From an uncultured Verrucomicrobia subdivision 3 bacterium (GTDB taxonomy: Bacteria; Verrucomicrobiota; Verrucomicrobiia; Limisphaerales; UBA11358), in contig CAINLR010000012.1 in assembly GCA_903850425.1 (NCBI GenBank), positions 1-64,000 on the forward strand: a stretch of DNA of 64,000 nucleotides, written 5' to 3'. Shown one piece after another: positions 593-1,179 of this stretch. The notes beneath the pieces are model-generated. The model had not been told where the DNA came from. It did no database searches and saw nothing but the letters and a program-made list of their open reading frames with translations. Positions within the stretch are counted from its first letter, which is position 1. Each line of letters starts with the position of its first letter. The position numbers and the translations under genes were made by a program.

Positions 593-669
593 GTTTGAGT
601 TTGGTTGTTTAACCGTCACCCCTAGTTGTCGCCCGTTGCGCCAACAACTTCAACATGCCTTCTTTCTAC

Positions 670-680
670 GTTAGGCATCT
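670..680 (+). other. Left cassette boundary: attC R' box GTTAGGC plus inverted-repeat arm
   Basis: GTTAGGCATCT fits the integron core consensus GTTRRRY (670-676) and ends one base before the start codon of the next gene. Its exact reverse complement AGATGCCTAAC occurs just after that gene's stop at 1076-1086. A possible R'' box (GTTTAAC) is at 607-613 and a small hairpin (AGTTGT/ACAACT, 624-649) lies between. This site may be an attC disrupted by the neighbouring insertion sequence. Confidence 0.6.
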
Positions 681-1073
681 ATGCGTGCCGTGCTGACAAT
701 CATCTGCTGGGTAATCGCCATCCCTCTGGGCATTGCTTGCTTGGATGGTTCGCCGATACGTCATTTGCTTGAGGGAGACGGATTGGGTTCGGGTTATGGT
801 TGGGCGCCTGTTTGGATAGCCATGATTGGAACTGCAGTTCCGTTGGTCTTGGCGCTTTTGGTCGGTCTGCTTGGCCGTTGGTTGGGATTGAGACGGACGT
901 GGCGAGCTATCTTGTCCGGGGTAGTTTGCGCTTTGGTTGTCGCGGCGGGCTGCATTGCAATGCAGAAGTTAGATGGAGGCGGCGTTGCACTGACCGGACT
1001 TTTCCTGCTTGCCGGTGGCTCAGTAGGATTCACCATTCGGCCGAGAGTCCCGCAACAGCTTTCTCATGAGTAG
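681..1073 (+). CDS. Small multi-pass membrane protein in an integron-like cassette
   Basis: A 130-residue protein with no family that I recognise. It is strongly hydrophobic, with about four likely membrane helices (around residues 4-20, 42-66, 76-95 and 101-119), separated by a Gly/Asp-rich loop and an RRT-containing cytoplasmic loop, so it probably resides in the inner membrane. The ATG follows the GTTAGGC core box by four bases, and the TAG is followed three bases later by the opening inverted-repeat arm of an attC site. That is the compact layout of integron cassettes. No ribosome binding site is visible, which is common for cassette genes. Function is unknown. The hydrophobic pattern supports a real protein rather than a chance frame. 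Confidence 0.6.
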   Translation: MRAVLTIICWVIAIPLGIACLDGSPIRHLLEGDGLGSGYGWAPVWIAMIGTAVPLVLALLVGLLGRWLGLRRTWRAILSGVVCALVVAAGCIAMQKLDGGGVALTGLFLLAGGSVGFTIRPRVPQQLSHE

Positions 1074-1075
1074 CC

Positions 1076-1179
1076 AGATGCCTAACCACCAAGGGATCGG
1101 AAAGGACTGAGGCGCGAGGGAGGGTGGCCTTGGGTGAGGGTGTGGTTGCGCCGAACGTCCTTTCCATCCGTTGTTGAAC
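1076..1179 (+). other. Putative attC recombination site of the cassette
   Basis: R'' box GCCTAAC is at 1080-1086 and a candidate R' box GTTGAAC at 1173-1179. Between them is a stem: 1094-1097 pairs with 1166-1169, C1098 is unpaired in the left arm, and 1099-1107 pairs with 1157-1165. GGCGC (1111-1115) then pairs with GCGCC (1148-1152) across an internal loop. One extrahelical base in the left arm and a variable loop are hallmarks of attC folding. In the excised circular cassette the right half would be TTAGGCATCT from 671-680, which pairs perfectly with AGATGCCTAA. No integrase gene is in the window. Confidence 0.62.

Follow-up and report, generated by a model that had tools for sequence, protein, structure and literature searches.

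In integrons, the bottom strand of a cassette's attC site folds, the integrase inserts cassettes at attI, and the integrase gene, intI, may later be lost. Insertion sequences of the IS1111-attC type were reportedly described by Tetu and Holmes in 2008. Passages of PMC11187229 report such elements, among them ISKpn4 and ISPst6, inserted in attC, and the window analyzed here (the whole stretch of DNA under study, the initial 64 kb of contig C12) is like them in that an IS110-type element with a DEDD transposase is inserted at one attC end. The window differs in that it comes from another phylum and in that its contig holds one end of the element, without the end that would carry the group's 11-13 bp subterminal inverted repeats and downstream non-coding region. 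CALIN, now reported from at least two attC sites and usually explained as degraded integrons according to passages of PMC9024848, resemble the window in their core sites, one gene, attC hairpin and lack of a nearby integrase. However, CALIN as defined in IntegronFinder 2 needs at least two attC sites, whereas the window has one whole attC and a cut remnant (662-676), with its left side lying beyond the contig, and the last attC here belongs to another family than the inner ones. The Delta-attI-type cassettes of mobile integrons, as portrayed in part of PMC12901181, likewise have something other than an ordinary attC as their 3' site; the window cassette ends in a hairpin, and attI-like ends are found instead in two related genomes (G046 and G001) and in contig C191 of the window's own genome.

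We consider it very probable that the feature at approximately 671-1173 is an integrated cassette closing a chromosomal integron array on its right, and that this array has lost, or has been severed from, its integrase. The main support, shown by sequence comparison, comes from the matched core sites, the gene between them, an attC-type hairpin that leaves one base unpaired, further copies of this hairpin behind unrelated genes, and, on the left, the end of an older attC. Points against the cassette reading are the plain folding energy, the partial pairing of R' with R'', the hairpins lacking a recognizable R'' core (nine of 32) or a TTAGGC within 1500 nt (seven of 32), the loci with 0/4 start-end agreement, and hairpin copies without a cassette. 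The cassette would have been brought in by an integron integrase, through recombination of the folded attC bottom strand at the core's G/TT. Insertion of an IS110-family element into the upstream attC would have followed, and the integrase gene would have decayed or been lost, which would leave the cassette movable only with an integrase acting in trans.

The cassette and its left edge

The source assembly is a 6.9-Mb draft in 197 contigs that is 96.03% complete. Contig C12 opens with an IS110-family transposase gene on the minus strand (2-619), which is cut by the contig start; it matches PF01548 (E 2.6e-8) and scores 79.8 bits with NF033542, below the cut-off of 140 because the gene is only partly present. 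The non-coding end of the insertion sequence (620-661, minus strand; CTTCAACATGCCTT) stops at approximately 661. It adjoins the right end of an older attC (CTTTCTACGTTAGGC; 662-676, plus strand) from the second attC family of the genus, which adjoins the integrases of the genus (GCCTAAC-AGTCGCCGGAGCC...GGCTCAGC-TTTTTTC-GTTAGGC) and is present in intact form in C191. The same insertion-sequence end joins CTTTCTACGTTAGGC at C12 and CTTTTTTCGTTAGGC at C95, and these are the stretches that separate it from the cassette. Within the collected loci, where overlapping loci enter more than once, CTTTCTACGTTAGGC follows an attC right arm in 18 of 24 occurrences and CTTTTTTCGTTAGGC does so in 43 of 49; in the other six cases each follows the insertion sequence. 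Because these stretches follow either attC right arms or the insertion sequence, the element cut the attC of a previous cassette; an array thus lay to the left, with the window cassette at least second in it. Inspection by eye led us to reject 607-676 as a second whole attC: the spacers are far from equal, and what lies there is the end of the insertion sequence.

In several congeners, attC sites contain a repeated element whose ends are inverted (ATGAGAAGGCAG ... CTGCCTTCTCAT); it lies directly behind GCCTAAC(A/C)A and breaks their contigs. Its left ends were seen at L248, L235, L076, L092, L220, L227 and L102 and its right ends at L185, L218, L237 and L257; two copies are short (approximately 370 nt). 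It looks like an IS1111-type element that targets attC.

The cassette starts with GTTAGGCATCT (670-680, plus strand), the core site GTTAGGC followed by ATCT, and ends with AGATGCCTAAC (1076-1086, plus strand), AGAT followed by the R'' box GCCTAAC. The two are exact reverse complements and the match ends at 11 nt, so that a GTTRRRY core start is paired with a complementary R'' end, as in integron cassettes. The bare repeat is not rare, given that the window contains 38 exact 11-nt inverted pairs spaced 250-900 nt apart; however, this pair is the only one of the 38 with GTTRRRY at its left edge. The one gene between start and attC (681-1073, plus strand) fills the space between the core sites and stops three bases before the R'' stretch. 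Its 130-aa product, with four hydrophobic segments, is likely a small membrane protein; it matched no family of Pfam or NCBIfam at E 1 and had no relatives among the plasmids or viral contigs searched. In 19 of 29 units, a simple ORF picker had a co-oriented ORF ending somewhere from 13 nt ahead of the hairpin to 3 nt into it.

In an excised circle, the bases beyond the core at a cassette's start pair with those at its end, and the two ends of one cassette should therefore match there. Sixteen of 32 hairpins were usable for this comparison (nine had no R'' core by rule, and seven had no TTAGGC within 1500 nt), and the four bases beyond the core agreed with the cassette's own end at 51 of 64 positions. 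Shuffling starts and ends between loci gave a mean agreement of 26.7 (sd 3.5) and a maximum of 42, and none of 100,000 shuffles reached 51. The count restricted to cores and the start-end agreement across loci led us to reject a chance inverted repeat. Two of the 16 loci showed 0/4 agreement: G041:C284 and the two-gene locus C62.

The attC-type hairpin and its copies

Next to the gene lies an attC-type hairpin (1080-1179, plus strand) running from R'' GCCTAAC to R' GTTGAAC, as delimited by folding, alignment and a covariance model. Its outer stem sets GGATCGGAAAGGAC (1094-1107) opposite GTCCTTTCCATCC (1157-1169), with C1098 of the left arm left over, and its inner stem sets GGCGC (1111-1115) opposite GCGCC (1148-1152). 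The right half carries GTTGAACCAGCCC at 1173-1185, and a tail (...GAGTTACTGAAG...TGCCTTTTGCTTTTC; 1180 to approximately 1223, plus strand) is common to most other copies. We built two covariance models, one of this window-type hairpin from the six copies in its own genome and one of the second attC family. Rfam gave no family over gathering in the window and none at E 0.1 in four hairpin loci. The bare pattern RYYYAAC...GTTRRRY was useless as an attC finder, its backward control giving 307 matches versus 179.

Folding energy by itself is weak support for an attC hairpin: the bottom strand had a z score of -1.64 and the top strand one of -1.89, and 12 and 7 of 200 shuffles, respectively, folded equally well. 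Covariation in the six own-genome copies alone did not rise above shuffles (93 of 500 reached it). In a 34-row alignment fitted to the model, one row of which is the reverse strand of C77, 90.4% of cells paired, versus 30-45% after sliding by 1-3 columns, and 25 cells were altered on both sides, versus 8.0 in shuffles (0/500 reached it); two further measures were weaker (reached by 37 and 50 of 500 shuffles). The imperfect palindrome and extrahelical base of an attC are present here (C1098, with pairing held in the 34 rows); by eye, the extra base is absent from some short copies. The R' box (GTTGAAC, 1173-1179) conforms to GTTRRRY, but only four of its seven bases match the complement of R'' (GTTAGGC), and it does not pair fully. 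Since the R' of an integrated site derives from whatever lies downstream, this mismatch lowers the cassette reading little.

The hairpin occurs at six places in its own assembly (C12, C57, C77, C62, C95 and C39). The C39 copy is cut by the contig end, and the other four copies beyond the window stand behind different genes: one for a 101-aa lipoprotein-like product at C57, one for a 102-aa product at C77, a DUF2314 gene and a gene for a 116-aa product at C62, and a Clp-protease-like gene at C95. The six-copy model regained these places together with a weak match at C1:147511 (40.5 bits) and C77 read backwards. Second-family sites were found at seven places in the same assembly, one good and six poorer, with scores from 80.8 bits (C191:133-233) down to 23.2 bits (C48). 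The preliminary description of this DNA had reported the exact reverse-complement start and end, the stem with one extrahelical left-arm base and the gene for a small membrane protein without a known family, and it had pointed to mobile cassettes or a cassette array just to the left; all of this holds, the array through the cut attC. Its picture of a lone cassette does not survive the hairpin copies and second-family sites listed above.

The hairpin model matched seven of 49 genus genomes at E 1e-4; the genus search and the family search covered the identical 49 genomes. When named genomes were scanned for the pattern, 20 stretches came up, and the model also matched 18 of them. The other two, in records titled Planctomyces and Paenibacillus, are best taken as chance; the remaining records are Verrucomicrobia, mostly subdivision 3, Limisphaerales or Pedosphaera, with one titled 'bacterium'. 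On L153 and L162, two window-type hairpins stand on one contig with IS110-family-like transposase sequence between them, adjoining a cassette start (by eye).

No orthologous neighbourhood was found for the window locus, where the neighbouring gene was at most 43% identical to any relative found. A response-regulator gene that reads towards the hairpin has its 3' end 300 nt to the right of the tail; three response-regulator-like genes in succession occupy 1523-2746 on the minus strand, two of which were confirmed by Pfam. The ORFs to their right resemble a NiFe hydrogenase operon.

Presence and absence were compared at the sister locus C77, where the hairpin lies beside fusA. Thirty loci were compared, its own and those of 29 relatives, 28 of which had a usable 3' flank while the contig of the other stopped at the gene; the hairpin was present in its own genome only and absent from the relatives' loci, a match at L189 (14 bits, E 0.31) being left out of the count. 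By eye, eight relatives have a gene beginning MA(A)QRIRIRLKAYDHR or alike, probably rpsJ, directly after fusA. A different array end stands behind fusA in the relative G040 (L185), which hints at a preferred site.

Array ends

Nearly all window-type hairpins share a right half that does not pair with R'', and they stand last where arrays can be read. Where at least two cassettes are visible, second-family sites occupy the inner positions and the window-type hairpin the last one: G041:C590 is a four-cassette array with three inner second-family sites, C62 has one such inner site (27 bits), and at C12, C95 and G010:C28 the right end of a second-family site forms the left edge. This sample of array ends is biased because most of the loci were found through the window-type hairpin itself; GTTGAACCAGCCC places at G000:C141, G041:C362, G041:C549, G047:C81 and G026:C96 were left out of the reading.

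This arrangement would also fit a reading that we hold to be unlikely: instead of being an attC that belongs to the cassette, the hairpin and tail would form a fixed, lineage-specific right end of the integron platform, to which a module GTTAGGC ... GCCTAAC was joined at R''. The terminal element would be hairpin and tail here and attI-like sequence elsewhere, and this explanation refines rather than excludes the main one. It fits the family difference between inner and last sites and the recurrence of the right half (GTTGAACCAGCCC or near it, in nearly all copies) and mostly of the tail, irrespective of the cassette gene. It also fits the halt of the start-end agreement at GCCTAAC and the arrays of G046, G001 and the genome's own C191, which finish in attI-like sequence right after GCCTAAY. 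Last cassettes of this kind, with GATAGGCTGCA or similar in that position and no attC, were seen at L261 (G046), L260 (G001), L093 (G003), L185 (G040) and L234 (C191). However, C77 has a near-normal R' (GATAGGC) and no tail, like an ordinary inner attC; C95b has the right half without the tail, G032:C146 and G047:C59 carry other tails, and the bias of the sample also tells against a fixed end. We think it more likely that cassettes carry this attC family and that its position at array ends is incidental than that it is a fixed terminal element.

In a survey of 13 arrays picked from matches to the second-attC model, with the ends after the last site judged by eye, none ended in a window-type hairpin. 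Two had an attI-like end (G046 and G001) and one weakly so (G012); two ended in the repeated element of the 'type 2' end described next (G035 and G044), three in a truncated attC (L253, L255 and L259) and one by joining chromosomal coding DNA (L254), and four were interrupted within a cassette (L249, L251, L252 and L263). A 'type 2' end (GCCTAAC then AAGATTAGATGAGAAGG...) in G035, G044, G043, G029, G042 and G019 was dropped as a fixed terminal element because other contigs hold its far ends (...CTGCCTTCTCATGG, then AAGTCGCCGGAGCC), which reveal a repeated element within an ordinary attC.

Our searches of open-licence papers turned up no report of terminal elements of integron arrays in this phylum. 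If the fixed-end reading were true, cassettes would also be exchanged at the R'' side, with the array end anchored. A terminal element, if real, would bear on what fixes the array end and on the origin of cassettes without an ordinary attC, which part of a 2021 review lists among the open questions of cassette formation (PMC8618304).

Integrase genes and their remnants

The NCBI integron-integrase model TIGR02249 exceeded its curated cut-off in 19 of the 49 genus genomes, and none of 14 control genomes matched it at E 1e-30. The second attC family was matched in 46 of the 49 at E 0.01, some by single weak matches. The preliminary description had called a lone cassette unusual for a Verrucomicrobiota-like chromosome, which these counts contradict: this little-studied environmental Verrucomicrobia genus is rich in chromosomal integrons and offers a series from readable arrays to stranded last cassettes. 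Its observation that no integrase lies nearby was borne out, and the genome-wide check of the draft likewise gave no match over the cut-off, so that the intI and attI of a complete integron were not found together. Matches below the cut-off were rejected as intI since all 14 controls also match at that threshold. The cut attC, the array to its left and the lack of an integrase over the cut-off point to a decayed chromosomal integron, which is of a known kind.

We tested ten flanks for intI remnants against 20 rounds of shuffled flanks, the maximum of which was 26.6 bits. The left flank of C77 holds an N-terminal intI remnant of 33 codons (36.6 bits), that of G010:C18 has 54 readable intI codons (90.9 bits) and resembles by eye the attI beside the G001 integrase, and that of G045:C73 holds an intI leader (30.8 bits). 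The signal at the other seven flanks, including C57, was not above the shuffles. Remnants first read by eye at C57 (23.9 bits) and G047:C59 (16.9 bits, other strand) fell below the shuffle maximum, and a first tblastn with integrase cores had found nothing at either.

It is unlikely, in our judgment, that the organism has an integrase that is missing from the draft and that the array is complete and active. The incomplete assembly leaves room for this, with C39, C95 and C108 breaking at or in hairpins and C12 in an insertion sequence, and congeners possess an integrase; against it stand the empty search of the assembly, the matches of all controls below the cut-off and the mere intI remnant at C77. 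Exact 141-base overlaps at the hairpin and tail are common to the ends of contigs C12, C39, C95 and C108; overlaps of this exact length are such as assemblers leave at repeats, so larger arrays may be absent from the draft.

An explanation without a cassette, in which the hairpin would be a terminator or a dispersed palindromic repeat of the ordinary kind, is in our view very improbable. In its favour, the hairpin is multi-copy, 17 of the 27 units with any ORF called have the nearest right-hand ORF reading towards the hairpin, and copies without a cassette exist, one being G032:C195, which follows an ftsZ-like gene. The start-end agreement contradicts it, and the intI remnant or attI at left flanks and the hairpin's place as last in a four-cassette array also tell against it. 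Two contig starts, L242 (C79:97-169) and L243 (C125:97-169), hold the inner part of a second-family attC without R boxes, and both are flanked alike by GCTATGAGTAAAGTC..., as if another repeat carried them.
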